Of a DNA stretch of 27,402 bases, positions 1 through 25,190 are shown piece after piece. Under the pieces are notes generated by a model. The model was not told the DNA's origin. It worked only from the letters and a program-made list of their open reading frames with translations, and ran no database searches. The first letter of the stretch is position 1. Each line of letters starts with the position of its first letter. This stretch comes from a virus, in IMG/VR virus record IMGVR_UViG_3300029286_000209, positions 1-27,402 of that record; one strand, 5' to 3'. A program made the translations under genes and the position numbers.

Positions 1-1675
1 CCCCTCCCAAGCCGTAGCCATCCAAGATGATGCGCGTCCCGTCATCCGGCTTCTCGGTGCTCGCGAAGAGCCGGTAGACCCCGATGATGTCGTGGATGTT
101 GACCGTCGTATCGCCCGCCGTGAAGTTCCAGTAGTTATTGAGCGCGTGCCCGGTCAACGCCCCGAAGTCGACCGTGATCCCATCCTCAAGCGCCTGCGCG
201 GCGCCCGTGATATTGACCGTCGTCGCCTCCCACGATAGCCCCCCATCGTTAGACCACTTGAAGGTGTTTGGTGAGCCGGTCCCGTCGATCTGCACGCGGT
301 AGCTGCGCTCCGTCGCGCCCGTGTAGTTGTTCCCCGAGTTCGTCTCCATGTCATCCAACGCATTGCCAGGACTCGGCACCGCGAACGAGATGTGTTTGGA
401 GACGACGCCCACGAACTCCAGGTCTTGCGAACAGAAGAAGTCGCCGTAGATCGTCAACCCCGAGCCATCGAACGCCAAATACTGCTGCGGGCTTGACTCC
501 GTGTCGCCGAAGAACAGCCGCCACTCGGACGCACTGTCGTCGTAGCCCATCCAGATGCCCGTTCCGTCCTTGTACCCGACGTCATCCCCTCCCATTCTCA
601 GGAGCGGGCTGTCGGTGCCCGCGACGCGCTGCATTCGGAATTGCGACCCAGCCGCCGCCGCCCAGTCAGGACTCTGTAGCGTCCCACCGATCAGCGTCCG
701 ACTGATGATGTCGTAGGTCGCGATGATGTGCTCTGCCGCCACCGTGTCCGCGAGGATATTCGCCTGGTCATCTTCCGACGGCTCGTAGCCGGCACCGCCA
801 TTGTCATGCGTCGTCCCCGCCGTCTCCGTCCCATCCCATCCGAGGACCGATACCTTGTACTTGTAGCTATGGGTCGCGTCGAGGTGCGCGTGCATCCAGC
901 CGATCTGGTCGCGTCCGAGTTCCGTCCAGACCCCCGTGAACCCGGTACCATCATCCACGTCGAAGTAGACGATGTAGTACGAGAACCCCTGCCAAGTCGA
1001 CTTCTGCTGGCGGAAGCGAAGGAAGATGCGCCCAAGCCCGACGATGACTTGCTCCGCGTTCCCCGTCCCCCAGTCATCGACCGATGTCGCGACATCGCCC
1101 GACACCTCGACACCCGTCGCGTTCACCTCGGACGTAGCGACAGACTCCATCGCATCCGAGTTGAGGGCCGTCACCCGGAAGCAGTACGGGCCGTAAGTGG
1201 TCCCCGGATCAGGGATTGTGAACTCGAACCGCTCGGCATCGACGAACTCACATCGTGTGTACGTCGAAGGGTCGCTGATGTCAATCCCCGCGTAGACCTC
1301 CCAGTACGAAGCGTTCGGCGGCTCGTTGTTGAGGCTCTCCGCCGTGCATCGGTAGGTCGCCGCCCCGTGCCTGACAAGCTCCCCAACCTCGTACGTCGTC
1401 ACGGCATCCCACACCACCGCGCCGATCCAGTAGACGTTGAAGCCGGCCAACTCTCCCTGCTTCAGTGCCTCACCCCGCGTGTTCTTTGTCGGAGCGATCC
1501 ACGTCAGCGACGCCCGCTCTAGGCCGGCGACGATCGCCAAGTCCGTCGGAGCCAGAGGGCCATAGGGCCGCGTCGGAACCTGGCACCCAACGACAAGCGA
1601 CCAGTCACCGATGTCCGTGCGCTGGACCACGAGGCCGTCGGCGAGTACTAGCTTCGTTGCTCCCTCATCCGGCAC
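1..1675 (-). CDS. Tail tip / central fibre protein, 3' end cut by window edge
   Basis: I translated this frame by hand: it is open from a GTG at 1673-1675 to the left edge, giving 558 residues with no stop. The GTG follows a GAGAGGGGG ribosome site. Residues about 42-187 and 210-290 read as fibronectin-III-like modules (FNVYW, YCFRVTALNSD, YKYKVSVLGWDG). Residues 88-127 look like a chitin-binding CBM5/12 module (WDAVTTYEVGELV, TYRCTAES, YWEVY) placed inside the first Fn3-like unit. Residues 304-330 (ANILADTVAAEHI) and 395-412 (LAFDGSGLTIYGDF) resemble the helical and beta parts of central tail-fibre proteins. Residues 451-521 repeat a domain found in the fibre at 5294-7459. Modules and position in the tail region suggest a receptor-binding tip or fibre protein; the exact role is inferred. 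The C-terminus lies outside the window. Confidence 0.8.
   Translation of the reverse strand, partial: MPDEGATKLVLADGLVVQRTDIGDWSLVVGCQVPTRPYGPLAPTDLAIVAGLERASLTWIAPTKNTRGEALKQGELAGFNVYWIGAVVWDAVTTYEVGELVRHGAATYRCTAESLNNEPPNASYWEVYAGIDISDPSTYTRCEFVDAERFEFTIPDPGTTYGPYCFRVTALNSDAMESVATSEVNATGVEVSGDVATSVDDWGTGNAEQVIVGLGRIFLRFRQQKSTWQGFSYYIVYFDVDDGTGFTGVWTELGRDQIGWMHAHLDATHSYKYKVSVLGWDGTETAGTTHDNGGAGYEPSEDDQANILADTVAAEHIIATYDIISRTLIGGTLQSPDWAAAAGSQFRMQRVAGTDSPLLRMGGDDVGYKDGTGIWMGYDDSASEWRLFFGDTESSPQQYLAFDGSGLTIYGDFFCSQDLEFVGVVSKHISFAVPSPGNALDDMETNSGNNYTGATERSYRVQIDGTGSPNTFKWSNDGGLSWEATTVNITGAAQALEDGITVDFGALTGHALNNYWNFTAGDTTVNIHDIIGVYRLFASTEKPDDGTRIILDGYGLGG
113..325 (-). repeat. Shared fibre domain, copy 1 (coding)
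   Basis: Residues 451-521 of the tip protein (RVQIDGTGSPNTFKWS, SWEATTVNITGAAQ) match the domain at 7076-7282 in the upstream fibre (IQIDGEGTPDTFKWS, TWEATGVAITGAAQ) almost residue for residue. The DNA is also clearly similar, for example the shared gcgcggcgcccgtga on the plus strand. This indicates domain duplication or recombination between two tail genes. Confidence 0.8.
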
Positions 1676-1804
1676 AGCCACCCCCTCTCATCTCACGAGC
1701 CCCGCAGAGCGCCGCAAAGCCTTCAACCCCATAACTCCACCACATCGCCCAACGAACCGATTAGCCGGCGTCTCCCTTCACGAGACACCCCATTGTAGCG
1801 AACA

Positions 1805-4672
1805 TCACACCAGCCGCCGACACGACACCTCGCTCAGCATGTTCCACCCCTGTTTGCCCCAGAGATCGAGGAGCTGGTCGAGGTACTGCGTGTAGCGGGG
1901 GATCGCCGATGCGATGCTGAATTGCTCCATCCCCCACGCATGGCACACTTCTGGCGAGAGCTTCCCCACGTTCTCCGCAGCCCACACGAACTGACCAAGC
2001 GTTCGGCACCGGAACCCCGTCGCCCCATGCAAGACGTTCTCGACGAACGCCCCGAAATCCGTGGTGATGACCGGCGTTCCACTGAGCGCCGCCTCCGCGA
2101 TCACGTAGCCGAACGGCTCAAGGTAGGTCGTCGGAACGAATACCGCCTTCGCCTTGCTCAAGAGCCGGCGCTTCATCTTCGGATCGGCGACACCCACGTA
2201 CTCGACTCCCTTCCCACTCACCGGAGTCGTCGCATCCATGCGTGGCCCTGCGATCACCAGGCGCGCACCGATCTCCTCCGCCGTCTGGATCGCGATACGC
2301 ACTCCCTTCCTCTCCACCACACGGCCCAGGAACAAGAAGTAGTCGTCCTTCGTCTTGGAATACGCGAAGTCGTCTGGGTCGAAGAATGGCGGAATCACGC
2401 AGTCCGTGAACCGCCCGTTGTCCTCTCCCTGACGGCCATAGGTCCAGTGCCGCCAGACATCACTCTCGAACACCCGGAAGGGCGCGAACGAGCCGACGTA
2501 CCCGATTCCGATCTCCACGGCCATCGGAAGTCCCGCCTTCTTGACAATCGGCTCGTGGTTCGTCCCTCCACTCAGCAGCAAGAAGTCAAGGTTGACACGG
2601 CGCCTGACGATCTCCGCACTCGCCCGGTCGAGGAACCTGTTGTGCAGCGCATCGAACCGCTGCATGAGGTGACCGCCCTCCCACTTCATGCCATAGGCCC
2701 CGACCAACTCGTCTGCCGTCAGCACGGTCACCACTTCATCAGCCGCCGGGACGACCGATCCCTCAACGCCGTAGAACGTGACGTGATGGCCGAGCGACTT
2801 CAGCACTTCCGCAAAGTTGACCGTCTTCGTGGCGAACGCATCGACCCCGCCATTCACCGTTGGGATGTCGATGTTCCCGACGAGATGGCACGAGAGCCGC
2901 TCACGGCGGATTCGGTGCGGCTGATTCTTCATCAGGCAGGCTGTTCCATCAGCGCGTGAGCGCAGGACTAGATGGAAGCCGAACTCCTTGACCAACCACT
3001 CGACGATGCCCCCCGCATCCGACCAATCCTCGACGATCACCGTGATCGGTTCCGATGTCCGCAGCCACTCTTCCGCACCCTGCAAGACGAGGCGTTCAGC
3101 ACCCTCGACGTCGATCTTGACCATCGCCGGCTGGACGAGAGGCAACAGGGAATTGAGGCGGGCGCACTTCACGACCTCCGTATCCCCTCCCTCTCGGCTT
3201 GCACCAATCAGCGTGTGGTGCCCTGCATCAGGCTTTCGGATGAGGAGCGCCTCCCCATCCACGTCCGCAGCAGCCACCTGTTGCGCCGCCACATTCTGGC
3301 AGCCATTCGCTGCGAGGTTTCTCTGGAGGAGCGCGAAGTTATCCGCCGCCGCCTCGAACGCATAGACCTGCCCCTTGGCCCCGACGAGCCGCGACGCCAG
3401 GACGCTGAAGTACCCGACATTCGCCCCCACATCGACGAACGTCTGCCCCGGTTTGAGGTGTCGCCGAATGAACTCCGTCGTGTTCTCTTCCCACACCCCG
3501 TCGCGTTGCAACCGCGGAAGGATGACGTGATCCGACGACATGAAGGTGAGCGCGATCGTGCCACACGACAGGCCGCTTAGGACGTTCTCCACCGTCACTG
3601 GCACGCTCGCCGCCTTCAACTCTACAGCCTCCGGCAGCGCATCGAGCATGAAGATCTGGCGGCACCCGGCACCCGGCTCCTCAGGGCCGACGAAGACGCT
3701 CTGCACCTTCGCCCGAAGCGCAGCCTCGATCCGCGGAGCGATTCTGTCAGGTGCGAAGATCGGGTCCCAGTCCGGTTGCTTCACGGTATCTGGCACCTCG
3801 ACGAAGAACCGATCGGCGCGCCCCCTCATCCTCTCCAGGTCCTTGAACGCCTGCGCCTCGCCCAGCGCATTGACCTCGTCGTGCAACACAGACAGGTAGA
3901 GGAGATTGTTGAACCTCTTTCGTAGCGCGATAAAGTCCTGCCAGCGCCCTGTGTGGATGTCACCGCGCAAGTTCGCTCGCGTCGTCAGATACCTGGATAC
4001 CGCAGCCAGATTAGGATCAGCCTCGACAGAGGTCACCAACCGCCCGCGCGCCAGAAGTCCGCGCGTCATGAATCCTTCTGAGCACCCGACGTCAAACACC
4101 GTCCCCGGCACGAGGTGCGCAGCAATCCATTCCAGGCGAGCAGCAGACGCCGGGCGCTCAACCGGGATGTCGGAGACCGTCGCATCTTCGATCGGCGCGT
4201 AGACGCGAACTCTTCCCCCGCGCACCTTCAGCATCTCCCGCAACGGGAAGCCATGCGATTCCTTCGGGCTGTGCGAGTCGCCGTTGATCCCTTCCCACTC
4301 CGTCTGGACGTTCACCTCGACCTCGATCCCCAAGTACCGCAGAATCGTCAGCCGGTGGTGACCATCGTATACCTGGAGTCGCCCATCCCCATCGGAGAAG
4401 CAAAGGACTTCCGACCCGTTGTAGCCGTGCGCCTTGATCTCCGCGTACAGCGCCGTGACTTCAACAAGCCGCCGCTGTATCGCCGCTTCGATATCCACCG
4501 CATCGCAGACGCTCTTGTGTATTCCAGCGCCGCCCGGTCGCTCGCGCATGAACTTCGCCAGAGGCGACGTCTCTCCGATGGCCTCACCTCTGTCGATCAT
4601 GCCCAACGTCGCAATGATTCTGTCGGCGAACCACGACGGCTCGATCAGCGTGTTGAGGATTCTGAACTGCAT
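1805..4672 (-). CDS. Four-domain ParB-like / methyltransferase / FkbM methyltransferase / GT4 glycosyltransferase
   Basis: This 955-residue protein joins domains usually found on separate polypeptides. Residues 85-122 carry a ParB/Srx-like core with DGHHR at 103-107. Residues 190-345 form a class I SAM methyltransferase (DVGCSEG at 194-200, acidic E217). Residues 405-575 form an FkbM-type methyltransferase (DVGANVG at 414-420, E440, KIDVEGAE at 519-526). Residues 595-945 form a GT4 glycosyltransferase with FLGRVVERKG at 781-790 and the EX7E pair E852/E860 in EPFGYVIAEA. FkbM enzymes typically O-methylate sugars or polyketides and GT4 enzymes transfer sugars from nucleotide donors, so glycan assembly with methylation is the likely role. 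No signal peptide or membrane segment is visible, so it is probably cytosolic. The ATG follows GGGAGGT at a 6-nt spacing, with its own candidate promoter. It sits between two fibre genes. Acceptor and sugar are unknown. Confidence 0.88.
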   Translation of the reverse strand: MQFRILNTLIEPSWFADRIIATLGMIDRGEAIGETSPLAKFMRERPGGAGIHKSVCDAVDIEAAIQRRLVEVTALYAEIKAHGYNGSEVLCFSDGDGRLQVYDGHHRLTILRYLGIEVEVNVQTEWEGINGDSHSPKESHGFPLREMLKVRGGRVRVYAPIEDATVSDIPVERPASAARLEWIAAHLVPGTVFDVGCSEGFMTRGLLARGRLVTSVEADPNLAAVSRYLTTRANLRGDIHTGRWQDFIALRKRFNNLLYLSVLHDEVNALGEAQAFKDLERMRGRADRFFVEVPDTVKQPDWDPIFAPDRIAPRIEAALRAKVQSVFVGPEEPGAGCRQIFMLDALPEAVELKAASVPVTVENVLSGLSCGTIALTFMSSDHVILPRLQRDGVWEENTTEFIRRHLKPGQTFVDVGANVGYFSVLASRLVGAKGQVYAFEAAADNFALLQRNLAANGCQNVAAQQVAAADVDGEALLIRKPDAGHHTLIGASREGGDTEVVKCARLNSLLPLVQPAMVKIDVEGAERLVLQGAEEWLRTSEPITVIVEDWSDAGGIVEWLVKEFGFHLVLRSRADGTACLMKNQPHRIRRERLSCHLVGNIDIPTVNGGVDAFATKTVNFAEVLKSLGHHVTFYGVEGSVVPAADEVVTVLTADELVGAYGMKWEGGHLMQRFDALHNRFLDRASAEIVRRRVNLDFLLLSGGTNHEPIVKKAGLPMAVEIGIGYVGSFAPFRVFESDVWRHWTYGRQGEDNGRFTDCVIPPFFDPDDFAYSKTKDDYFLFLGRVVERKGVRIAIQTAEEIGARLVIAGPRMDATTPVSGKGVEYVGVADPKMKRRLLSKAKAVFVPTTYLEPFGYVIAEAALSGTPVITTDFGAFVENVLHGATGFRCRTLGQFVWAAENVGKLSPEVCHAWGMEQFSIASAIPRYTQYLDQLLDLWGKQGWNMLSEVSCRRLV

Positions 4673-4696
4673 GCCCGCACCTCCCGTCTGACCGCT

Positions 4697-4725
4697 ATTC
4701 TACTCGCGGCGCCGTTTCACCCCAA
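4697..4725 (-). promoter_or_regulatory. Candidate sigma70-like promoter for the four-domain enzyme
   Basis: On the minus strand TTGGGG (4725-4720) and TAGAAT (4702-4697) are separated by 17 bases, 25 bases upstream of the ATG at 4672. The -10 matches consensus at 5 of 6 positions and the -35 at 3 of 6. It lies in a 160-base gene-free gap, which is rare in this tightly packed operon. This is a consensus match only. Confidence 0.35.
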
Positions 4726-4832
4726 GTGCGCAGCACAACAGCGCAGCGCCAGCTATCCAGTCACCCCGCACACGTCAGCGATGGACGATCCGCCCACGCC
4801 TATCTCCCCCAGACGCCTTGCCCCAACACGCG

Positions 4833-5045
4833 TTACTCCTTCGATGCATCGGGCGCTTCAATGTGATCGTCTAACACTCGCACCGCGGGCCACGTTGCCT
4901 CGGGCACTGCGGCCTTGGCGAGGATGCCACGCAGCAATTCCTCTCGTTCCGAACTCAGGATTCGTCCCTGCGCTTGCAGCAACTGCAACTGTGCCTCGAT
5001 CCTCAGTTTTTTCTCGCGCTCCAACTCGGTGAACTCGATCCTCAT
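4833..5045 (-). CDS. Small coiled-coil protein of unknown function
   Basis: This gene encodes 70 residues. The first half is strongly charged and helical (FTELEREKKLRIEAQLQLL, then SEREELLRGIL), suggesting a short coiled coil; the tail is acidic (DDHIEAPDASKE). Its ATG overlaps the TGA of the upstream 80-residue gene as ATGA, so the two are probably translationally coupled. I do not recognise a family. Position just after a tail fibre gene suggests a minor tail accessory or fibre assembly factor, but that is inference. Similar short helical proteins are common in phage tail regions and usually lack an assigned function. Confidence 0.65.
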   Translation of the reverse strand: MRIEFTELEREKKLRIEAQLQLLQAQGRILSSEREELLRGILAKAAVPEATWPAVRVLDDHIEAPDASKE

Positions 5046-5284
5046 TTCGCCTCCTCTATACTCCCCGAGACGTCAGGGAGATCATTTGACTTGACCCCTA
5101 GCGCAATCTCGATCGCTGCGATCTTCTCTTGGAACGCCCGCCACTCCTTGTCCAGCGTGTCGCGTCGTGCGAGAATCCCCGCGCGTTCCGCTTTCAGATC
5201 CTCGAACGAGAATGTCTCCACTTCCTCCGTTGATCGCGTCCGCCTAATCGTATTTGCCGACCGATTTTCCCAAGTATATTCCAT
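5042..5284 (-). CDS. Small helical protein of unknown function
   Basis: This gene encodes 80 residues. A GGAGGCGACA ribosome site lies directly upstream of the ATG, and the gene begins 9 bases after the stop of the fibre gene. Residues about 26-64 (FSFEDLKAERAGIL, DTLDKEWRAFQEKIAAIEIAL) form a heptad-like helix likely to be a coiled coil. The stop overlaps the start of the 70-residue gene. No family is recognised. The arrangement of two coupled helical proteins behind a fibre gene would fit a fibre chaperone or attachment factor; no motif proves this. Confidence 0.65.
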   Translation of the reverse strand: MEYTWENRSANTIRRTRSTEEVETFSFEDLKAERAGILARRDTLDKEWRAFQEKIAAIEIALGVKSNDLPDVSGSIEEAK

Positions 5285-5293
5285 TGTCGCCTC

Positions 5294-7459
5294 CTAGTTG
5301 TAGTAGTATATAATGCGGATCTCGCCAGTCGTCCCGAGTCGGTTCTTGACGATTGCGCCCGTCCCGCCATCGTAGCAGCACAGATCCGTGTCGGTGTCTG
5401 CTGTTGCCACGTTGCCCGTTGTCGTGCTGATGAGCTTCACCGCACCGCTTGTCTGAACCAGGAAGATTCCGGCCTCTGCGTTGCACGACACGATGCAGAT
5501 CCCAGAGGTAGCGTCGGGAAGCGATACCGTCCCATCATCCGCGAGGGCATCGGCCTGGTAGGTGAATAGGTTCATCGTACCAAGCATCGAGCGAATCCCC
5601 AGGATCCCAGTCTCTTCTGATTTGATGTGCAGCCCAGCTTTATCTGCCACGCCACCGACATCTGCTACCCAGACCTGGGCGGCGCTTGCTGGGCTCGTCG
5701 ATGGGGCGGTGCCTACCGCCATGCCGATCGCCTTTGCCGCGCTCGTCCCCATCGCCGCCAGCGTGCCAAGCAGCACGTTACCAGACGAGTCCAGAGTCAA
5801 TCCGATTGCCCCCGCCCCGTACATCAACTGCGTCTGCCCACCAGAGATGTACGTCCCGATACGGAACGTCTTCGGAATCGTTGCCGTCGATCCTCTGTAC
5901 TGGAAATAGCCGCCAGCAGTGCTTGTGTTCTCGTAGAATGTCAGTTGAGGAACCGAACCAGTGCCAGTCCCTCGCAAAACGATCTCGGCACCACCCGCAG
6001 TCACTAGATCAAGCTTCGCGCCCGGAGTAGTCGTGCCAATGCCGACGTTCCCAGCGAAGTACACCTTGTCTGATGCGCCTGCACAGTAGAGGGCATAGGG
6101 GGCGTTCGTGTGCGTTCCAACGCTAGTTTGCGACTCGACATAGATCCCGTACAAAGTCCCGATCGTCGCCGTTGCTGGGTTCGTCGGGGCTTTGACATAG
6201 ACGCCATAAGACGTGCCAATCGTCCCCCCGGCAGCGTTCCTAATCTCTGAATATAAACCGTAGGCCACCGTGATCGTCCCGGTTGTCGCGTTGTTTACCA
6301 AAACGTGGCAACAGAACGCACTAGCCAGTGTGGTCGTATCGTTGTGAACGACCCCGAACTCAAGCCCTTTCAATGATCCGGTAAGACCGTATCCATTACC
6401 GGCCTGGGACTTCGTATACCCGTAGATGCCTCGCAGTGTCGCAGAAGACTCAGCAGTTGGGGCCAACACCCCGTCAATCCACAAGGCCTGGAATGTCCCG
6501 GAAGTAATCGTCTGGTACCCAGACGCCACCTTCATACGGACTGTCGTTCCGGGAGCGTTCGTGCCTATCCCGACGTTCGCGGTATCCGTCACACGCAAGG
6601 CTTCTGTCGCGCCGTTGTTACCAACCTGGAAGATGATGTCAGAGCCTGCCGCGCCGACGCCAGACGTGGCGCGGATCGTTGCCCCGCTATCCGTCGATGT
6701 AGAGCCGATCAGCACTTGCCCGCCAGCACGGCCTGAGAGCAGCGCATAGTCGGCGGGTTTTGAAGCACCATCTTTGAGTAGCTTGCCAGTCACTCCATCG
6801 AAGACGGCAAAGTTGCCGTCTATTGCACCGGAAGGGCCAACAACGTCGCCGCCGCCACCCGTTGGGCCAGTTGGCCCCGTCGGCCCAGGAACCGTCGACG
6901 CTGGACCCGTCGGCCCTCTTCCGCCAACGAATGGCGTGTATTCCAGCGCCGCGTTCAGATCCGACGGGTCGTAGTCGTCCTTCTCTAAGAGGATCGTCCC
7001 GCGAGGATAGAGCCGCGTGTCGACGAAGAAGCTGATGAGCCCCTGATCGTCCGTGACGAACGGATTCGAGCGCGCTCTGAAATCCCAATGGTCCCCCGAC
7101 GTGTGTCCGGTCGTCGCGGCAAAGGTCACCGTCAACCCGTCGGCAAGCGTCTGCGCGGCGCCCGTGATCGCGACGCCCGTCGCCTCCCACGTCGAGCCAC
7201 CATCCTTCGACCACTTGAAGGTGTCAGGCGTCCCCTCCCCATCAATCTGGATGCAGAAGTCCGTCTTGTCATCCCCGGTGAAGACGGTGCCTCTGGTCAG
7301 GTCGTCCAGCCCCGCGCCAGTGAACGTCACGCCACCAGCCGTGTCGAACAACGGAATCGGGTTCGTGGTCCCCGGAACATAGACGTAGACCGTGACCGTC
7401 GACACCTTGAACCCGCTCGTGTCCTGCACGAAGCGCGCGTACTTCTCGTAGGTCGGCAT
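5294..7459 (-). CDS. Tail fibre protein with collagen-like segment and beta-repeats
   Basis: This 721-residue protein starts at an ATG after GGAGGTGAGGCG. Residues 1-60 form a likely virion-anchoring N-terminus, and 60-128 match a domain in the tip protein at the left edge. Residues 181-200 are collagen-like (GPTGPTGPTG). Two copies of the fibre motif VGIGT-x-xPG occur at residues 296-304 and 472-480, typical of bacterial and phage trimeric fibre shafts. Between them, four short units with an aromatic-rich core recur about every 18-19 residues (AYGLYSE at 399, SYGVYVK at 417, LYGIYVE at 436, PYALYC at 454), suggesting repeated beta-turns. No S74-type self-cleaving chaperone is evident at the C-terminus, which ends IRIIYYYN. 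It probably forms a trimeric fibre for host recognition. Threonines in the GPT repeats are possible glycan sites. Confidence 0.85.
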   Translation of the reverse strand: MPTYEKYARFVQDTSGFKVSTVTVYVYVPGTTNPIPLFDTAGGVTFTGAGLDDLTRGTVFTGDDKTDFCIQIDGEGTPDTFKWSKDGGSTWEATGVAITGAAQTLADGLTVTFAATTGHTSGDHWDFRARSNPFVTDDQGLISFFVDTRLYPRGTILLEKDDYDPSDLNAALEYTPFVGGRGPTGPASTVPGPTGPTGPTGGGGDVVGPSGAIDGNFAVFDGVTGKLLKDGASKPADYALLSGRAGGQVLIGSTSTDSGATIRATSGVGAAGSDIIFQVGNNGATEALRVTDTANVGIGTNAPGTTVRMKVASGYQTITSGTFQALWIDGVLAPTAESSATLRGIYGYTKSQAGNGYGLTGSLKGLEFGVVHNDTTTLASAFCCHVLVNNATTGTITVAYGLYSEIRNAAGGTIGTSYGVYVKAPTNPATATIGTLYGIYVESQTSVGTHTNAPYALYCAGASDKVYFAGNVGIGTTTPGAKLDLVTAGGAEIVLRGTGTGSVPQLTFYENTSTAGGYFQYRGSTATIPKTFRIGTYISGGQTQLMYGAGAIGLTLDSSGNVLLGTLAAMGTSAAKAIGMAVGTAPSTSPASAAQVWVADVGGVADKAGLHIKSEETGILGIRSMLGTMNLFTYQADALADDGTVSLPDATSGICIVSCNAEAGIFLVQTSGAVKLISTTTGNVATADTDTDLCCYDGGTGAIVKNRLGTTGEIRIIYYYN
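7076..7282 (-). repeat. Shared fibre domain, copy 2 (coding)
   Basis: Residues 60-128 of the fibre protein carry the copy paired with 113-325. Conserved landmarks in both copies are QIDG-x-G-x-P, TFKWS, DGG, WEAT, ITGAAQ-x-L-x-DG and a TGH followed by an aromatic pair. Here it is N-terminal; in the tip protein it lies in the later part of the visible sequence. Confidence 0.8.
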
Positions 7460-7463
7460 CGCC

Positions 7464-9476
7464 TCACCTCCTCGTAGTGGTCGGAACCGCAGCGACTTGC
7501 GCGATCACGAACTCACCTTCCGGCAGCCCCTCGATCTGTGTGTAAGGGTAGCGGTCGGCACTCTTCAGCGTCCAGGCCGTCGCCTTGCGAACAACCCGGT
7601 AGGCCTCCCCAACAGCCGGCGCCGTCGTGAAGGGTTGGTCGACACGCATCATGGTCGCATCGTTGTAGACGATTCGACGGAACCTGTCGGTGCCCGCCCT
7701 CCCACTCCCAAGCAACCACAAGTAGTCGCCAATGGCCTCGTATTCCTCCATGCGACTCTGGGCGGAATCAGTCAACGTCGTCGTTGTACCACCCGTAGCC
7801 GCCCCCGTGAACTTCTCCTTGACCAACGCATGACGGACGCGGTAGCCCGACACGTTCCAGTCACCCGTGCCGAACCACGCGACGTGCACAGCCGGCGCCG
7901 CGCTGCCGTCTGCCTGATCTCGCCACACACCCTCGGCCGTGACATTCGAGATCTGGAGCGGCGTCCCTCCACGGAACTGCGCGAGATCGCGCGTGACCTT
8001 CCCCTGCCAATCCTGCCGCCCTCGCGACAACCAGTAGGAGCGACGCCCGATGCGCTTGTTCTGTGCGCCCTGGAGCACCGTGTACCCGTACCAGTTGTCC
8101 CAGGAGAACCCCCATTCGAGTTGGACCACGCCGAGATCGAAGTCATCCTCCGTGTCGGTATCCGCCCGAACGAGGTCGCCAAGCTCCACCCCCAGCAAGA
8201 GCCACGGGCAACTCATCTCGCCGTCAACCCCGGGAACCGAGAGGTCGGAGAGCGCCATCTTCGCCTCGGCCAGCGCCTCGCCCGAGGTATCGGTCGACGA
8301 CCCATCCTTCTCCACCAGCCGCATGTAGCGGTGCTTCCGCGCCGCCGTCAGCGCCGCCGGATCGAGAACGCCATAGGTCGCTCGCGCCGCTTCGTTCTTC
8401 ACCTCGACGAAAGCATCCTTCCCCGTGTACCGATCCGTGTAGACGAGCTTGATGTAGGTACGGATCTGCGACTCGCTGTACCGCAAGCGGAGGCGGTTGA
8501 TGTTCTGCCCGAGGTCGATGTCCGGCGTCGTGTTGGTGCGCCGCGGGTCGATGACCGTCGGGCGGAAGCCAGCGACAGGCGAACCGCTCGCCGTCGCCTG
8601 CCCCGTCACCCCACCGGCCAGCGCATCCCCCGACTGGAAGGTTCCCCCCTCCGTGTCCTTCATGTAGAGGAAGCCCTTAGCCGTCCCCGCTTCCCAGGTT
8701 CCCGACTTGACGACCCACGACATGACCTTCCCCGTCGCCCCGCTGAGGCTCCCCGTCACCGTCTCGCCGTCCGTGAACTCCACGGAGCCCCCCGAGAAAG
8801 CGAGCTTCGTCGAGAAGCACTCGTGCATGCAGAATCCAATCCCATTGACGATCCGCGTCATCGCTTCGAGAAGGTTCGTGTCACCGATTCGGTAGTTGTA
8901 GACGAAGTAGTTGAGGTCTGGAGCTGCGATGACTACGTTCTCCGCGAACTCGTAGTCGACGAGGATCTGGTTGCACACATCGCGCGCCACGCCGATCGAC
9001 AGCCAGTTCTGGCTGTAGACAAGGCCATCGTCGCGGTCGATCCACTTCATCAGGTAGCCTTGCATGACGCCGACAATCGGGCAGTCGAAGTCATCAGCTC
9101 CGCCGTAGGTCTGCGTAGGCCCCATCTCCGCCTCGCCGATCTGCCCGACGAACATCAAGGCCAGCGGCCCTGAACCCTTCGCCAAGTAGAGTTCAGCGAC
9201 GTGCCCCGCGCCGAGCAGCGGCACTCCTCCAGGGTTGTAGCTCGACACCTCTCCCGGATCGAGGCTTTTGTTCGCCAGGCGCCAGTCCGCGTGGTTAGTC
9301 AGGGTCACAGTCAGCACGCCGCGTCCCGACTCCATCTCCCCCTTGAAGCTGACGCGCCTGACCCGCGACTCACCGTCGAGGTCGAAGAGATCGAGCCACT
9401 GCGTCCCCGTCCAGACGCGGAGGATTGCTGTGGTCACCGGCTCGCATGTGTTTGCGCTTGCAAAGGTTCGCGCCAT
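7464..9476 (-). CDS. Tail hub / tail-tip structural protein
   Basis: This 670-residue protein begins one base after the tape measure stop, where siphoviruses usually encode distal tail and hub proteins. The N-terminal part (RVWTGTQWLDLFD, VLTVTLTNHADWRL, VAELYLAKG, FVGQIGEAE) is beta-rich and reads like a baseplate or hub domain. Residues about 229-298 form a compact inserted module (GETVTGSLSGATGKV, GTWEAGTAKGFLYM, GGTFQSGDALAGG) that interrupts the hub-like sequence, which resumes at FRPTVIDPRR. The C-terminal region (VWRDQADGSAAPAVHVAW, WNVSGYRVRHALV) looks Fn3- or Ig-like, which suits an outer tip position. It likely joins the tail tube to the fibres. Assignment rests on position and style rather than a catalytic motif. 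Confidence 0.72.
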   Translation of the reverse strand: MARTFASANTCEPVTTAILRVWTGTQWLDLFDLDGESRVRRVSFKGEMESGRGVLTVTLTNHADWRLANKSLDPGEVSSYNPGGVPLLGAGHVAELYLAKGSGPLALMFVGQIGEAEMGPTQTYGGADDFDCPIVGVMQGYLMKWIDRDDGLVYSQNWLSIGVARDVCNQILVDYEFAENVVIAAPDLNYFVYNYRIGDTNLLEAMTRIVNGIGFCMHECFSTKLAFSGGSVEFTDGETVTGSLSGATGKVMSWVVKSGTWEAGTAKGFLYMKDTEGGTFQSGDALAGGVTGQATASGSPVAGFRPTVIDPRRTNTTPDIDLGQNINRLRLRYSESQIRTYIKLVYTDRYTGKDAFVEVKNEAARATYGVLDPAALTAARKHRYMRLVEKDGSSTDTSGEALAEAKMALSDLSVPGVDGEMSCPWLLLGVELGDLVRADTDTEDDFDLGVVQLEWGFSWDNWYGYTVLQGAQNKRIGRRSYWLSRGRQDWQGKVTRDLAQFRGGTPLQISNVTAEGVWRDQADGSAAPAVHVAWFGTGDWNVSGYRVRHALVKEKFTGAATGGTTTTLTDSAQSRMEEYEAIGDYLWLLGSGRAGTDRFRRIVYNDATMMRVDQPFTTAPAVGEAYRVVRKATAWTLKSADRYPYTQIEGLPEGEFVIAQVAAVPTTTRR

Positions 9477-9477
9477 C

Positions 9478-12400
9478 TCAGTACTCCGTCGCCAACTCGA
9501 ACCCCGTTTGGAGCAAGGACTTCCGCGCCTGCCTCCGGCTCACGGCCTTCGCCACTCTATCGCCGTCAATCTCGACGACCGTCTCGACCGTCACATCGCC
9601 CAGGCCCATCCCCAGCACGCCGAACGACGGCATGGACAAGCCCGCCCCCTGCGGCTGAAGACCCGGGAACGAGAGGGCCGGTGCGGGCGTACCGAACCCC
9701 CTCGCCCCGGTACCGCTCGGCGGGGTGTTCATTCCGAGCGGCATCCTTCCAAGCATCCCACCACTGACCTGCCCCGTGCGCCACGTCTCCTCGATCAGCG
9801 CCGCCACTCCGGGAAGGCTCATCATCCAACGGGGGACGACGAACTCGCCAGGCGTCAACAGCGCCGGAACCGTATCCTGCGTCCCCGCGCCGCCGACGTA
9901 GCCGCCCTTCGCCTTCTTCTCGCCGAAGATCGACTTCCAGAGTTCCGACCACATCGCGGCGAAGACCGACGACCAAACCTTCGTCCAGAAGTCATCTTTG
10001 CCCTGCGAGATCCCGTCGAGCGCCGTGCCGAGGTTCGTCAGCGCGAGCTTGAAGTTCTCCAGCTTGGTCTTGAGGTCGTTGCCCCACTGCTGGATGAGCC
10101 AGATAATCATGTCCTTGATGTCGGGCCAGTTCTGCTTCACCGTCAAGAAGACCGTCGCCAAGGTGTCGGCCAGCATCTCCAGAACCTCCTTGAGTACCGG
10201 CCAGACATCCGTCTTGAGATCGTTCCACACCACGTCGCGGAACCACATGACGACGTCCTTGAAGATGCCGTAGAGGTCGAGCGCAATCGCGCCGAGCGCC
10301 GGGAAGACATCGGACTTCAAGAACGGATCGACGTCAGTCTTCCACCATTCCCCGAACCCCCCGAAGAACGCCTTGAGTTCGCCGAGCAAGTTCTCCTGGA
10401 TGTAGGTCACGACACCGAGCAGGACATCTCCCACCGTCTGGAACACGGGGAGCACCGCGCCGATGATCGACGGCGCCAACTCCTCCCAGATCATTTTGAG
10501 CCGGTCGAAGACATCTTGGAACACGGCGACGACATCCGTCCACGCCGTCCCCATGTTCTTGAGGATGTCCTTCAACCACTTCAGGTGGTCGACGACCTCC
10601 TGCTTCTCGCTCTCGATTGGGTCCTCTTCCTCCTGCGACCAGTCGACCGGCGGCTGGCCGGGGACCGCGGCCTCGTACCGGATGCGGTCCACCTTCCACC
10701 CCGTCGGGACGTTCAGGTTGTCGACCATCGCCTTCGTGCTCTTCTTGGTCACCTCTGTCGCCGTCTCTACAGCCGGGAAGAACTGATCCATGAGCACCTG
10801 GGAGATCGCCGACACCGCCTTGAAGAACCCGCCGAACAGCGCGTCGAGAATCTTCCCCCAGAACCCCTGGAGGTCACTCATCATCGTTTGATAGCTCTCC
10901 AAGCTCTCGACGAACGACCCGAACGCCCGCGCAAGGTCCTGCGTCTTCTCCGTGAGCCAGATCACCGAGTCAGCGTAGCGGTCGACCTTCTCCTGCTCCT
11001 TCTCCCTCGCCTCCTCCGCAGACTGCCCGATCACGTCGAGCACCCACCCCAGGCCCGTCGCCACGGCCCCGAAGATGTTGCCGGTCATCGCCTGCCCCGC
11101 CGCCGTCACCCCGGCCTGCAATGCCGAGCTGAGGCCGCTCAGGTCCGTTCCCGTGATCTTCCCCAACGTATCAGCAGCCTTCGCGATGAGCCCGACCAGC
11201 GTCCCCGCGAAATCCAACGCCGCCTGCTCCGCCTCGCTGAGCCCGCGCTCCACATCGAACAACGCCGGAGGCAGCTCCTTCTTCATCAGCTTGGCGAATT
11301 GCGTGTAGAGGAAGTGGGCGATGCTCGACGAGTCGCCGAGCTTCTCGAACATCGCGTCGAGGTCAGCGGAAGTCGACACAAGCCCCTGTAGCGTCGCATA
11401 GTTCGCCAACAGCTCCGACGGCGACAGGATCTTCCCACCCGCGTCGATGTCCGCTTGCTCCGTCAGCCCGTAGGTCTGGACGCCAGTCCGCAACGACTCG
11501 ACCAGATCGCGGAGCTGTTTTTCGACCTCCGGATTCGGCGCCCACGGAACGCCCTTCGACACCCCCATAGTGAAGAAATCCGTGAGCGGCCGTTCCGAAA
11601 CTTCGAGCCGCTTCAACTCATCCGAGAAGCCCATGACCGCAAACCGCGACGCCTCCAACTCCTTCGCCCACTCCGGGATGCGCGCAGACGCCAGTTCTAG
11701 CGCCGCGTTCCACGCATCGAACAGCGGCCCGCTCTTGATGCCGTATGTCTCGAAGGCCGTTCCCACTGCCAGCAGGGAACTCTTCACCCGTTCAACCTCA
11801 CCCGACAGATCGAGGAAGTCGCCGAGCTTCATGCTCCCGGCTCCCGTCGCCCCCGTCGCCGAGGTGAGCGACGACAGCGCGACGCTGACCGAAGACATGA
11901 TCGACGAGAGGTCGAGCATCGTCTTGTTCGAGAACTCAACCGACAGCGTGTTGAGGCTCTCCCCGAACTTCCTCACGGCCTCAATGGTGTCGTTGATCTC
12001 CCTTTCCCAAGCCAGGACGGTTCCCGCCATGTCGCGCATTGCGAGCACCCACGCATCGAACAGCGGGCCGCTCTTGATGCCGAGCTGCTTGAACGCCTCC
12101 CCCACAGCCATGAGCTTCGACCGGACATCCCCAACGGACTCCCATCCCGCGAGGAAGTCGGCAACCGTCTGCGGCGCTCCATCAGCCTTCTGCCCGGACT
12201 TCAACCCGGTGACGACCGTCTTGATCTCCGCACTCAACCCGACGAGATCGGTGATCGGGAGCTTGGCGAACCGCTCGCCGAGCGTCTTGATCGCGGCGCC
12301 CGCCGTCTCCACCTCGACGATGAACTCGGTGATCGCCTCTTCCCACGCCGGCACCTCGGCAGCAAGCGCGAGCATGGACTCCTTCCACGTATTGAACAGC

Positions 12401-15400
12401 GCCCCGCCCTTGATCCCCGTGTTCTTGAAGGACTCTCCCATCGACGTAAGGGCATCGCGAACCCCAGAGATGTCGGAGTAGGTATCCAAGTACTCACCAA
12501 CCGTCATCTCGGTCCCATCACCCTTGAAGCCGGTCTGAAGCGAGGTGAACGACTTCGCCAACTCACCTTGGATGAGGCCAAGGACCTCCCCGAGCTTCAG
12601 CTTCTTGAGCTGCTCGGTCAGCGTGTAGAGGCTATCCCCGAACTCCCCTGTCTCCTCAAGCACCGTGTCCCCGAGATTCTTCTCAAGGTCCGCTGCGACA
12701 TCATTCATCGACTTGGTGAGTTCCGCCATCTCCTGATCGGTGAGCGTCACACCCGCCGCAAGCTGGCGGAGCTTCCCAAAGAACTCAGAGACGAAATCCT
12801 TGTTCCGGGCGAGCGGCGTGATGAAGGACTCAAGGGCGTCAAGGATGATGTCGAAGGTCGTCGCAGTCCTCTCCGCCACCCCCTCCAATGGCGCCGTGAG
12901 TGCAGCGCCGGTCCCCGCCGAGATCGGCAGAGCGCCGGCCACCGCTCCACCTTCCGCGAACCTCCGCGCGCCCTTCCGCCACATGCTCGTGACCATCCCC
13001 GAGAACCACGGGATGCGCATCATCCAGTTCGGGACGACGAACTCGCCAGGCTCAAGCAGCGCCGGGATCTTGTCGCCAAGCCCCATCCCCGGGACCCCAC
13101 CACCCTCTGCGAACGCCGTGACCGCGCCGCCCCACTTCTTCCCTCCGATATTGAACTGCCCGCCCTCCAGGTTGAGATTGAGGCCGCTCGGCAGCGAGGT
13201 GCGCAGGTACTCGTAGAGAGCATCGTAGAGACGCTGCTTCTGCGCCGGATCAGTGATCGCGTCGATCATCCCCTGGAGGAAGTTCCGCATGAAGTTCTCC
13301 GCGATCCCCTCACTCCCCGTCGCGTACTTCAGCGTATCGAACGACTGAGTGAAGTAGGCAGAGAAACGATCCATGAGCGCCTGCCAGTCAAGCTCAGACA
13401 CCGCCTGCTCGAAGATACTCGCCCATGCCGTGGCGAGATCTTTCGGGAGCCCCTCATCGACCAACGCTCTCTCAACGTCGAGGACGCCCATCGACTCCAC
13501 AATCGCCTGCACGCCACTGTATAGGGTCTGCTTTTCAAGGTTCAATGCTTGTGCGATTTCAGCCTGCGACTTGTCCCCCCCTGTGAACTTCGGGATGATG
13601 TTGATGAGCGCATAAAGGGACAGGCCGCTGATCGCACCGATCGCCATGCCAGCCGCCGCACCACCCGGACCGAACAGCGCCCCGATCTTCGCACCAGCCC
13701 ACCCGCCACCCAACGCCGCAGCGAGGCCGCCAAGCACCTTCATCAGCACGCCCATGAACGAACCAGGGTCAACCTCGCTGACCCTAGGCACGATGTTGAA
13801 GGTCAGGAGCATCGCAGCACTCGCCATAAGCCCGGCGCCAACCAACGGGATGCCGAGCGCCGCCGCAACCGCCGCGGTAAGGACTCCCATCCCCAGCGCG
13901 ATTGCGATCTTGTCAATGAAGTCGTCGAAGCTGAAACCGCCTTCGATCGTCGAGTCCTTCGACGAGATCCAGATCTGAAGGGCGAGCGTTGCGACGAGGC
14001 CGAGCGCCAAGCCCAACCCACCTGCGATCGCCGGCGCCACGAAGCCAACACCCAACGCGATGAGCCGGGATGCCAGAGTCGGGAGGAACCCAGTGATGAG
14101 CGCCACCGTCCCCAGACCAATGACCAAGTCCAACGCGATCTGCCCGAAGAACTCCCCCCAGTTCCTGTTGCGGAGATCGTTCAACAGCTCATCGAGGTTG
14201 AGCGCATCCTTGATCCAGTCGACGAGAGCCCGCACGAGGTCTTGGACGCCGAGAATGTTCGCTTCCCACGCGAAGTAGAAGATCCCGGCCAGCGCCACAA
14301 GCTGGACGAGCGGGTTCGAGAGGAGGCTCCACGCCTTCGTCAGCCCCCACACGAGCATGACGAGCTTCCCGATGTTGAGTCCGATCTTGAGGAAGTACTT
14401 GATCGCGTCTGCGTTCTGGACCACGTACTTGTAGGCCTTCGCCAACCAGACGACGACCCCTTCCTTCACCGAGTCCGCCCACTCCACGAACTTGTTGACC
14501 ATCGGGACGACGCCTTCCTGCGTGATCTTCTGAAGGATCGGCAAGAACCACTCCCCGATGTTCGTCGCCGCGAGTTCCAAGCTCGATTCCATGATCTTCA
14601 TCTGGCCTTGGAACGTCTTGAGCTGGATCTCTGCTTGGCGAGCGGCGGTCCCTCCGGCCTCCTCAAACTGCAACGTCATCTCACGCAGCGCCTTGCTGCC
14701 GACAGACATGAGGTTGACCATGCCCGGACCGGCCCGGACGCCGAAAATCGCCATCATGTCAGCAGCATCAGCGCCCGCCTGCTCGAACGTCTCCAAGATC
14801 CCGGCCATGTCCTTCCACGCGCCTGTCGCCCGGTTCTTGAAGTCGTCAATCTGCAACCCGAGAGGCTTCAGCTTCTCCGTCGTCAGCTCGGCGCCCTCCA
14901 AGATCTCACCGAGCGCATAGCGGAGGACGGTTCCCGCCGAACTCCCACGGATACCTCGATCCGAGAGCTTGGCGATTGCCGCACTCAGCGACTCGATGCT
15001 GATCTTCATCGCAGCAGCAATCGGGCCGGAGTACGACATCGCCTCGAACATATCGCTGACGTTCGCCGCCGAAGCCGAGGCACCAAACGCGAACACGTCC
15101 GCGACGCGCGTCGACTCCTTCGCCTCCAGGTTGAAGATGCGGAGCGCCGAACCCACCATGTCCGCGGCGCCAGCGAGTTCGATCATCTGGCTCGCCGCGA
15201 GGTCCGACACCCCTCCGATCGACTGAATGATCTCGTTGGTCGACAAGCCGAGACGGCCGAGGGCCTCTTCACCCTTCGCGATCTCGACCATCGTCCATTT
15301 GGTTGTCCGCCCGAGTTCCTTCGCCCGGTCAGTCAACTCTTGGAACTGCTTGCCGGTCGCCAGAGTGACGGAGCGGACCATCGCCATTGCCTGCTGGAAG

Positions 15401-15603
15401 TCACTGCTGACGTCGATGACCTTCTTCAAGCCAAGAGCCAAGCCGAACGCACCGCCGACCCCGACAATGGTCATAGCGGTGCGTCCGAACTTGCTCAGCG
15501 CAGCTTCAGCCTTGAACAGGCCCGCCGCGAATGGAGCAGAGTTGATCCCGAGCGTTACCCAGGCAGAGCCTACGACTTCAGCCCCCGGCACACCGATCGG
15601 CAT
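9478..15603 (-). CDS. Tail tape measure protein
   Basis: This 2041-residue protein is by far the largest in the window and follows the tail chaperones, as tape measure proteins do. The ATG follows AGAGGTGG. The N-terminus (VTLGINSAPFAAGLFKAEAAL, then MTIVGVGGAFGLALGLKKVI) and the following helical region (KELGRTTKWTMVEIAKGEEALGRLG) match TP901-type tape measure proteins. About residues 400-680 contain several hydrophobic segments (VMLVWGLTKAW, LVIGLGTVALITGFL, LTAAVAAALGIPLVGAGLMA), as expected for a protein entering the host membrane during DNA ejection. Residues about 1000-1338 carry three tandem repeats. The motif PALL-x-PGEFVVP-x-WMM occurs near residues 850 and 1920. It sets tail length and is likely ejected with the DNA. 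Confidence 0.95.
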   Translation of the reverse strand: MPIGVPGAEVVGSAWVTLGINSAPFAAGLFKAEAALSKFGRTAMTIVGVGGAFGLALGLKKVIDVSSDFQQAMAMVRSVTLATGKQFQELTDRAKELGRTTKWTMVEIAKGEEALGRLGLSTNEIIQSIGGVSDLAASQMIELAGAADMVGSALRIFNLEAKESTRVADVFAFGASASAANVSDMFEAMSYSGPIAAAMKISIESLSAAIAKLSDRGIRGSSAGTVLRYALGEILEGAELTTEKLKPLGLQIDDFKNRATGAWKDMAGILETFEQAGADAADMMAIFGVRAGPGMVNLMSVGSKALREMTLQFEEAGGTAARQAEIQLKTFQGQMKIMESSLELAATNIGEWFLPILQKITQEGVVPMVNKFVEWADSVKEGVVVWLAKAYKYVVQNADAIKYFLKIGLNIGKLVMLVWGLTKAWSLLSNPLVQLVALAGIFYFAWEANILGVQDLVRALVDWIKDALNLDELLNDLRNRNWGEFFGQIALDLVIGLGTVALITGFLPTLASRLIALGVGFVAPAIAGGLGLALGLVATLALQIWISSKDSTIEGGFSFDDFIDKIAIALGMGVLTAAVAAALGIPLVGAGLMASAAMLLTFNIVPRVSEVDPGSFMGVLMKVLGGLAAALGGGWAGAKIGALFGPGGAAAGMAIGAISGLSLYALINIIPKFTGGDKSQAEIAQALNLEKQTLYSGVQAIVESMGVLDVERALVDEGLPKDLATAWASIFEQAVSELDWQALMDRFSAYFTQSFDTLKYATGSEGIAENFMRNFLQGMIDAITDPAQKQRLYDALYEYLRTSLPSGLNLNLEGGQFNIGGKKWGGAVTAFAEGGGVPGMGLGDKIPALLEPGEFVVPNWMMRIPWFSGMVTSMWRKGARRFAEGGAVAGALPISAGTGAALTAPLEGVAERTATTFDIILDALESFITPLARNKDFVSEFFGKLRQLAAGVTLTDQEMAELTKSMNDVAADLEKNLGDTVLEETGEFGDSLYTLTEQLKKLKLGEVLGLIQGELAKSFTSLQTGFKGDGTEMTVGEYLDTYSDISGVRDALTSMGESFKNTGIKGGALFNTWKESMLALAAEVPAWEEAITEFIVEVETAGAAIKTLGERFAKLPITDLVGLSAEIKTVVTGLKSGQKADGAPQTVADFLAGWESVGDVRSKLMAVGEAFKQLGIKSGPLFDAWVLAMRDMAGTVLAWEREINDTIEAVRKFGESLNTLSVEFSNKTMLDLSSIMSSVSVALSSLTSATGATGAGSMKLGDFLDLSGEVERVKSSLLAVGTAFETYGIKSGPLFDAWNAALELASARIPEWAKELEASRFAVMGFSDELKRLEVSERPLTDFFTMGVSKGVPWAPNPEVEKQLRDLVESLRTGVQTYGLTEQADIDAGGKILSPSELLANYATLQGLVSTSADLDAMFEKLGDSSSIAHFLYTQFAKLMKKELPPALFDVERGLSEAEQAALDFAGTLVGLIAKAADTLGKITGTDLSGLSSALQAGVTAAGQAMTGNIFGAVATGLGWVLDVIGQSAEEAREKEQEKVDRYADSVIWLTEKTQDLARAFGSFVESLESYQTMMSDLQGFWGKILDALFGGFFKAVSAISQVLMDQFFPAVETATEVTKKSTKAMVDNLNVPTGWKVDRIRYEAAVPGQPPVDWSQEEEDPIESEKQEVVDHLKWLKDILKNMGTAWTDVVAVFQDVFDRLKMIWEELAPSIIGAVLPVFQTVGDVLLGVVTYIQENLLGELKAFFGGFGEWWKTDVDPFLKSDVFPALGAIALDLYGIFKDVVMWFRDVVWNDLKTDVWPVLKEVLEMLADTLATVFLTVKQNWPDIKDMIIWLIQQWGNDLKTKLENFKLALTNLGTALDGISQGKDDFWTKVWSSVFAAMWSELWKSIFGEKKAKGGYVGGAGTQDTVPALLTPGEFVVPRWMMSLPGVAALIEETWRTGQVSGGMLGRMPLGMNTPPSGTGARGFGTPAPALSFPGLQPQGAGLSMPSFGVLGMGLGDVTVETVVEIDGDRVAKAVSRRQARKSLLQTGFELATEY
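11590..12610 (-). repeat. Three tandem ~111-residue repeats inside tape measure protein
   Basis: The core GIK-x-G-x-LF-x-x-W occurs three times: GIKGGALFNTW, GIKSGPLFDAW and GIKSGPLFDAW, at nucleotides near 12400, 12070 and 11740, so the period is about 330 bases. Each is preceded by a small acidic segment (EYLDTYSDI, DFLAGWESV, DFLDLSGEV) and followed by a helical pair. A degenerate fourth unit may follow (SELLANYATLQGLV). This suggests growth by tandem duplication. Confidence 0.75.
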
Positions 15604-16522: not shown

Positions 16523-16993
16523 CTAGAGCCTCCTCGCCAAGAACTGCGCCGTGAACCGGGTGAGCGGTACTCCCTCTCCACCGTCTTCCGCGTCCGATGC
16601 CTTACACTCCAGGTCGATAAGTTCGAGCCCTCGGACGGGCTTCCCCTGGTACACGACCTGTTGCGTCGGTCCCTCTGGCCCCGGCGCGACGTCGATGACG
16701 AAGCCCGAGAGGTTGAGATGGGCCTCGTGGAGATGGCACGGGATCTGCGCCTCTCCCTTCTCATCCACCCCAGCAGGCGACAGCAGACGCGCCGTCGCCC
16801 CGCTCGCCCTGATCCCCAACGAATGGATGCCAGCGTAGGTGAATTGAGCCTCGACCCCCGCGACCTCCGCCGGCTGGCCGTCGATCAGCACGCTCGTCGG
16901 GTTGTGAGTCTCGCCGACGTGCACCTCGATCGGCTTGCCGAAGAAGGCTCCTTCTGCCCGAATCAGCCCCTTGATCGTCCCGCATGTGTTCAT
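16523..16993 (-). CDS. Unknown 156-residue protein in tail region
   Basis: The start is set by an ATGA overlap with the stop of the glycosyltransferase (ATG at 16991-16993, TGA at 16990-16992); the open frame upstream is antisense or out-of-frame reading of that gene. The protein is beta-rich (FFGKPIEVHVGET, TSVLIDGQPAEV, QFTYAGIHSLGIRASG, LNLSGFVIDVAPGPEG, QVVYQGKPVRGLELIDLECKA) without a signal peptide or membrane segment. I do not recognise a family. It sits between tail tube/glycosyltransferase and the chaperones, so a minor tail component is possible; alternatively, because it is coupled to the glycosyltransferase, it may belong to the same cargo unit. Confidence 0.7.
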   Translation of the reverse strand: MNTCGTIKGLIRAEGAFFGKPIEVHVGETHNPTSVLIDGQPAEVAGVEAQFTYAGIHSLGIRASGATARLLSPAGVDEKGEAQIPCHLHEAHLNLSGFVIDVAPGPEGPTQQVVYQGKPVRGLELIDLECKASDAEDGGEGVPLTRFTAQFLARRL

Positions 16994-18114: not shown

Positions 18115-18186
18115 GCCACCCCCTTTGACAACAGACCAATGAGTGACCTGCGCCCGCGCCCGCAGACGCAGGCCACCCGCCACGCC

Positions 18187-18591
18187 CTACACCACGAGAG
18201 TCAGGGCGCCGTTTCCCTGGATATCGAAGCCGACAGTCGCCACCGCCGCCACCGCGACGTCGACGTTCTCCGCCGAGACGTACGCGATGCCGTGGTAGTA
18301 CTTGTCGCTGTAGACGTGGAAGTAGCACTCGACCTGCGTGCCGCTTCCGCCCATGAGCGCCGTGTTCAGCGCCGCCTGGCCGGCGTCGTCGAGATCCCAG
18401 AACCCCTCGGCCACACCCGTCCAGTTGCGGACGCCGCACTTGAAGGCGCCCCACCCATTGTTGGCGAAGACCGAGACGTCGTTCAGCGCCATGCTGATGG
18501 ACAAGCTCCAGTGATTCAGCTCACCCACGATGGCCGCCGAGCCGAGAGCCCCCGCCTTGAAGTACCCGTCTACTCCGCAGTAGGTCGTCAT
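18187..18591 (-). CDS. Major tail tube protein
   Basis: This 134-residue protein starts at the ATG 18589-18591, directly after a GAGGAGGGAAGAGGA site; the open frame extends further upstream into the terminator gene but without need. The sequence MTTYCGVDGYFK, LNHWSLSISMALNDVSVFAN, GVRNWTGVAEGFWDLDD, YYHGIAYVSAENVDV and FDIQGNGALT has the beta-rich pattern of siphovirus tail tube proteins, where the strand pattern forms a hexameric ring. It directly follows a tail terminator and precedes the chaperone/tape measure block, the usual order. It would polymerise around the tape measure protein. Confidence 0.88.
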   Translation of the reverse strand: MTTYCGVDGYFKAGALGSAAIVGELNHWSLSISMALNDVSVFANNGWGAFKCGVRNWTGVAEGFWDLDDAGQAALNTALMGGSGTQVECYFHVYSDKYYHGIAYVSAENVDVAVAAVATVGFDIQGNGALTLVV

Positions 18592-18608
18592 TCCTCTTCC
18601 CTCCTCCT

Positions 18609-19028: not shown

Positions 19029-19031
19029 ACC

Positions 19032-19388: not shown

Positions 19389-19401
19389 GTCCTCCCCTCC
19401 T

Positions 19402-19994: not shown

Positions 19995-20001
19995 CTCTTC
20001 C

Positions 20002-20388: not shown

Positions 20389-20417
20389 AGCCTCATCGAC
20401 GATGGCCCCGACGTTGC

Positions 20418-20855: not shown

Positions 20856-20895
20856 GCCCCGACCTCCTCCCTCATCTCACAGCAGCGCCGTGAGC

Positions 20896-21198: not shown

Positions 21199-21226
21199 TG
21201 GTTCGGCCCTCCTTCAGGTGCCGCGC

Positions 21227-25186: not shown

Positions 25187-25190
25187 AAGC

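Follow-up and report, generated by a model that had tools for sequence, protein, structure and literature searches.

A four-domain phage protein with ParB/Srx-like, WbdD-like, FkbM and GT4 domains is a candidate virion-glycosylation enzyme encoded among tail genes

WbdD, the chain terminator of the Escherichia coli O9a O antigen, is a kinase/methyltransferase for sugar phosphate. The substitutions H132A, H133A, R203A, and Y16F each abolish methylation by this enzyme, and its phosphate specificity has been credited to H132, H133, and R203 (PMC3482155). In BclA, threonine residues within PTG triplets are O-glycosylated (PMC6222408). Virion glycosylation by phages is likewise known; in mycobacteriophages, according to the account given of Freeman 2023 in PMC11600133, glycosyltransferase and O-methyltransferase genes modify the capsid and the tail tube. 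A fourth relevant system is the ParB/Srx (ParB-CTPase) fold, in which the GxxR motif, or box II, is the phosphate box, and of which bacterial fusions to S-adenosylmethionine (SAM) methyltransferases bind ATP (PMC12704722). Here we describe a 955-aa protein, encoded among the late tail genes of a phage, in which elements resembling parts of these systems are joined. Judged from its sequence and genomic surroundings, it is probably a virion-glycosylation enzyme that would build and methylate a fibre glycan and cap it through its N-terminal half.

The window, that is, the whole stretch of DNA analysed, is a 27.4-kb virus contig that carries on its minus strand the late region of a tailed phage, with genes for an XkdF-like protease, a major head protein (phrog_1005), tail proteins, a 2041-aa tape measure protein, and fibres. 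One sister contig (IMGVR_UViG_3300029268_000100; G001) is 99.7% identical to the window over positions 18525-27402. A second, the 59-kb contig IMGVR_UViG_3300029286_000042 (G002), overlaps both ends of the window, so the window and G002 probably represent a single type of genome, about 86 kb in length. The minus strand of G002 (L126) encodes a GTP cyclohydrolase I (10369-11100), a PTPS/QueD-like protein (11577-11951), and a GT4 enzyme (12933-14048), a set which suggests 7-deazaguanine or pterin chemistry. An ABC-transporter permease domain (PF00528, 1e-19) is also encoded on this phage contig, at 14704-15483 (minus strand).

The features of the locus are listed in Table 1. A first-pass annotation had described an unbroken frame of 955 residues with four intact motif sets, lying between two fibre genes and preceded by its own candidate promoter. 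The frame is indeed a single ORF, on the minus strand, which had not been given before, and its ATG is preceded by GGAGGTG. All of the quoted motifs were located in the translation: DGHHR at residue 103, DVGCSEG at 194, DVGANVG at 414, KIDVEGAE at 519, and the GT4 EX7E pair E852/E860 within EPFGYVIAE. Fibre genes do flank the frame on both sides, but on the upstream side two small ORFs and about 160 bp intervene. The promoter was not supported: a scan of positions 1500-5400 for sigma-70-like promoters found none, versus 0.7 expected in shuffled sequences.

Table 1. Features of the 955-aa gene and its surroundings in the window
Feature	Position	Strand	Basis or remark
955-aa four-domain gene	1805..4672	-	ATG at 4672, stop ends at 1805
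ParB/Srx-like N-terminal domain, aa 1-140	4253..4672	-	GxxR (DGHHR) box
First methyltransferase (MT1), class I SAM methyltransferase, aa 141-345	3638..4252	-	WbdD-like (Y158, R173, R179, H264, R338)
Link between the two halves, aa 346-393	3494..3637	-	gene boundary in L088/L089
FkbM methyltransferase domain, aa 394-592	2897..3493	-	PF05050 4e-17, TIGR01444 2e-30
GT-B family GT4 glycosyltransferase, phrog_3408 family, aa 593-955	1808..2896	-	phrog_3408 4e-77
70-aa small ORF, between upstream fibre and 955-aa gene	4833..5045	-	
80-aa small ORF, between upstream fibre and 955-aa gene	5042..5284	-	
Upstream tail-fibre-like protein, 721 aa, candidate substrate	5294..7459	-	position and collagen-like stretch
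Collagen-like stretch GPTGPA...GPTGPTGPT, fibre aa 182-200, four GPT triplets	6860..6916	-	sequence
Downstream tail/fibre gene, continues beyond window	2..1681	-	weak phrog_5073 tail fibre 2.6e-4; CBM_5_12 below cut-off

The gene is a natural fusion, since its set of domains recurs both as two adjacent genes and as independent fused genes. In the phage lineages L088 and L089, the four domains are found as neighbouring genes for ParB-like plus MT1 and FkbM plus GT4, which are 36-38% and 45% identical, respectively, to the corresponding halves of the window protein. That these genes touch or nearly do so would fit two genes joined by an error of assembly or sequencing, the possibility that the first-pass annotation had named as refuting its reading. 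However, such a join is hardly credible: L091 and L092 each encode an independent fusion as one protein (941 and 947 aa) with an equal domain order (Methyltransf_24 occupying the FkbM slot), neither GC nor GC3 shifts along the gene and no stop interrupts the junction of the halves, and both halves align in frame, with a short link between them. Each half has end-to-end homologues in other phage contigs. The first-pass annotation had set the architecture apart from standard phage morphogenesis genes, but it is not quite without parallel: as one gene, the version with FkbM has been found only in the window so far, yet fusions of this layout with another methyltransferase and two-gene versions of the four domains exist in other phages. 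Searches of viral and genome contigs with single proteins returned none of the relatives, which were found only by alignment-based scans. A literature search found no paper combining ParB, FkbM, glycosyltransferase, and phage.

The N-terminal module of ParB-like domain and MT1 is accompanied by glycan genes, either adjacent or in frame, in 6/6 phage lineages. It is fused to GT4 in L091 and L092 and neighboured by FkbM-GT4 in L089, by FkbM-GT4 and a cytidylyltransferase-like gene in L088, by sugar-transferase/FkbM and GT4 genes in L093, and by genes for a PIG-L deacetylase, a hexapeptide transferase, and a GT4 in L095. Homologues of the module in Bacillales also lie within glycosyltransferase clusters. 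Additional ParB-like and MT1-like gene copies stand side by side in L092 and L093; in the latter (6467-9032), the ParB-like/methyltransferase pair occurs twice in tandem, once split and once fused. In a genome from the order of Paenibacillus (L210, 3-677 and 5654-6784), a (GAT)n collagen-like ORF, a ParB-like plus methyltransferase gene, and a GT4-like gene were seen close together (<5 kb).

MT1 is matched weakly in Pfam. When a profile of eleven homologues was compared with the PDB, WbdD came first (E 6e-17), followed by UbiG (2e-13), and WbdD was also ranked first by Foldseek and by VIA-align (Z 18.8, with other methyltransferases close behind at 18). Alignment to the product of E. coli O9-type wbdD gave an hhalign probability of 98 (E 5e-14). 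In a free alignment, Tyr16, Arg31, Arg36, and Arg203 of WbdD fell into columns that are invariant across the phage, Bacillales, and WbdD proteins, their window counterparts being Y158, R173, R179, and R338; the distance of 15 residues from Tyr16 to Arg31 is the same as that from Y158 to R173. His132 of WbdD is conserved in every phage copy (H264 in the window), and the position of His133 is occupied by Asp265 in the window and is variable in other homologues. By these comparisons, MT1 resembles WbdD but differs from it at one of the three residues of the phosphate site. Matches of the N-terminal half to Streptomyces plasmids were dropped, as they covered the generic methyltransferase core only.

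The domain that precedes MT1 likely has a ParB/Srx fold. Its AF2 model, in which pLDDT is about 90 for most of the domain, has the order strand-helix-strand-strand-helix-strand that is typical of ParB/Srx domains. These elements surround a GYNGS loop and the DGHHR box, of which D103, G104, H106, and R107 are invariant in 11 homologues. Pfam searches with the domain gave no match up to E 10, and membership in the ParB family of ParABS systems (PF02195) was rejected, with neither the window protein, at E 10, nor any of 7 relatives matching that profile. A profile made from phage sequences alone found no solved structure. With Bacillales homologues added, the best solved match was SbnI, at a weak E value of 0.0023; all three SbnI entries were at the top, and the alignment spanned only about positions 83-148 of the profile. 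Among the matches listed in the fold searches there was no ParB-fold chain, but the list was filled by the methyltransferase part and is hence uninformative. The ParB-like label given by the first-pass annotation has its basis in the motif, the predicted topology, and the weak SbnI match, and does not extend to ParB family membership.

The same annotation had proposed that this part might be kinase-like. That idea is weakly supported by SbnI being the only credible solved match and by the resemblance of the partner methyltransferase to the phosphate methyltransferase WbdD; searches of the 955-aa protein against family profiles matched no kinase family. The two resemblances, to WbdD and to SbnI, are the basis for the hypothesis that the 955-aa protein perhaps forms methyl-phosphate caps. 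In this tentative and, on balance, doubtful scheme, a ParB/Srx-fold kinase would phosphorylate a hydroxyl of the glycan (or of Ser/Thr) and the WbdD-like domain would methylate the phosphate, giving methyl-phosphate-capped fibre glycans. The N-terminal half would then be, with equal doubt, a second, independently evolved kinase/phosphate-methyltransferase pair, the kinase fold of WbdD being unrelated, and a single polypeptide would perform on fibre glycans the task of WbdD on O antigen.

A different role for this half is suggested by a PNAS 2025 survey (PMC12704722), in which fusions of the ParB fold with Methyltransf_23 are phage-enriched and are called predicted DNA methyltransferases. The N-terminal half could accordingly be a methyltransferase for nucleic acids, equipped with a ParB-like nucleotide switch, serving anti-restriction and fused by chance to sugar enzymes. 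We regard this as very improbable, as the closest relative of known structure is WbdD, which methylates a sugar phosphate, the module is found with glycan enzymes in every phage lineage in which it was detected, and the 955-aa protein matched no DNA-methyltransferase family above its cut-off. The ParB-like/MT1 branch described here points to glycans rather than to DNA, the substrate presumed in that survey.

In the C-terminal half, the families assigned by the first-pass annotation agree with profile matches that lie beyond chance (Table 1). The FkbM domain exceeds the curated cut-offs of TIGR01444 (106 versus 37.7 bits) and PF05050 (63.3 versus 22.7 bits). A PADLOC match to mad2 was rejected as a link to defence, as it was strongest over some 70 aa in the SAM-binding core of the FkbM domain. 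The GT4 domain covers positions 23-363 of the 363 in the phrog_3408 profile, including EX7E, and its predicted fold is GT-B, the nearest structure being the alpha-1,2-glucosyltransferase tll1591, with AviGT4 lower in the list. Structure prediction modelled the FkbM part poorly: in the full-length model, whose input alignment was without FkbM, pLDDT was 20-40 across most of this domain. Viral relatives of the GT4 domain number at least 583, and many of these are fused to other, varied methyltransferases. A 677-aa protein encoded at L040 64-2094 has two GT4 catalytic regions within one chain.

Tetrahydrobiopterin glucosyltransferases are among the fold neighbours of the GT4 domain, and the sister contig G002 encodes the GTP cyclohydrolase I and PTPS/QueD-like proteins. 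A small-molecule or modified-base substrate, such as a glycosylated nucleotide or a pterin, is nevertheless quite improbable: the pterin-type genes are on another contig, the FkbM and WbdD-like domains point to glycans, and the GT4 relatives are linked to fibre genes.

This linkage was measured by asking for collagen-like ORFs (six or more GXY) within a reach of 6 kb of 51 dereplicated viral GT loci, the control being 40 phage FkbM loci and not random fibre-adjacent genes. A scan for WecB, intended as the control, had returned two near-identical phages only, and the FkbM loci were used instead. A collagen-like ORF was present in reach of 23/51 GT loci versus 2/40 FkbM loci (Fisher 1e-5) and was directly adjacent in 10/51 versus 0/40 (p 0.002). 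Within the GT loci themselves, the 10 adjacent cases also exceed the 3.5 that other genes would give (p 5e-4). The link is not universal, since 28/51 GT loci have no collagen-like ORF in reach. The repeats mostly carry Thr at the Y position, (Gly-X-Thr)n, and collagen-like fibre genes lie just upstream in L091 and L092, whose layouts are the closest to that of the window. The GPTGPA and GPTGPTGPT stretches of the upstream fibre in the window are of the kind seen in GT4-linked collagen-like fibres; being short and a common phage element, they leave room for the substrate to be another part of the fibre. In Synechococcus phage ACG-2014f (L006, 1130-6606), a collagen-like protein, small genes, a GT, a 2OG-Fe(II) oxygenase, and a tail fibre follow in order, one small gene having a methyltransferase-like DIGGGP motif. 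This row looks like a cassette for collagen hydroxylation and glycosylation, and a literature search found nothing combining cyanophage, collagen, prolyl hydroxylase, and glycosyltransferase.

Further sugar genes are found elsewhere in the window. WecB, a non-hydrolysing UDP-GlcNAc 2-epimerase that would supply ManNAc-type sugars, is encoded next to the head protease gene (26096-27199, minus strand; 317 bits, above the cut-off). A second, unrelated GT4 glycosyltransferase (16990-18183, minus strand) lies inside the tail operon beside a tail-tube-like gene and had no relative in a tblastn search of the phage collection. With WecB and the further GT4s, and with MT1 and FkbM domains resembling O-antigen and capsule enzymes, the phage might instead make or alter a glycan off the virion, for example a host surface polysaccharide, leading to superinfection exclusion or receptor change. 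We consider this unlikely, albeit less so than a small-molecule substrate, as the gene is in the late tail operon with no export partner seen adjacent and its GT4 relatives track collagen-like fibre genes. Of these readings, the one proposed by the first-pass annotation, in which the enzyme builds and methylates glycans and may act on the fibres, has the strongest support, from the association of GT4 relatives with collagen-like fibre genes and from the glycan genes accompanying the module throughout.

As a probable virion-glycosylation enzyme, the protein would be made late, together with the tail genes, and its GT4 domain would use a nucleotide sugar as the donor to glycosylate a hydroxyl, most likely that of Thr in a collagen-like Gly-X-Thr stretch of the phage's own tail fibre, or one on a sugar already attached. 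The FkbM domain would O-methylate the fibre glycan, and the ParB/Srx-like domain would bind a nucleotide and, with the WbdD-like methyltransferase, finish the chain with a cap. The GT4 step is supported by the genomic linkage, by Thr glycosylation in BclA, and by phage virion glycosylation through GT and methyltransferase genes; the substrate, the order of steps, and the chemistry of the N-terminal pair are what we infer.

The family or fold of each domain was known already. What is new is the four-domain layout, which recurs in other phages, together with the joining of a ParB/Srx-like domain to a WbdD-like methyltransferase and the statistical link between the GT family and collagen-like fibres. 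A large, unassigned viral GT family is thereby connected to collagen-like phage fibres, which provides a testable substrate. A glycan role is also offered for at least one branch of the ParB-fold/methyltransferase fusions, which until now have been presumed to have DNA as their substrate. If the methyl-phosphate hypothesis were true, a chain-terminating cap that is already known would be made by a new route, and the ParB/Srx fold would gain a new activity.

The methyltransferase domain of WbdD is homologous to MT1, but in WbdD a eukaryote-type kinase domain follows the methyltransferase, whereas in the window protein the ParB/Srx-like domain precedes it, and His133 is replaced by Asp. The ParB-fold free serine kinases SbnI/SerK have the DG-x-HR box in common with the window domain, although the match is weak and depends on the Bacillales homologues in the profile. 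In the exosporium collagen BclA of Bacillus, Thr of the triplets bears an oligosaccharide with a terminal methylated sugar, similar to the proposed fibre glycan, but BclA is a spore protein of a cellular organism and is not phage encoded. Mycobacteriophages, as described in the cited account, use phage-encoded GTs and an O-methyltransferase on virion proteins, as proposed here; these are separate genes with capsid and tail tube targets, and that account mentions no ParB-like or WbdD-like part. Finally, the phrog_3408 GTs of cyanophages ACG-2014f and S-CAM7 are 42-43% identical to the C-terminal 340 aa of the window protein (S-CBWM1, about 30%) and, like the window GT4, adjoin collagen-like or tail-fibre genes; in contrast to the window fusion, they are stand-alone GTs, with the methyltransferase and oxygenase encoded by separate genes.
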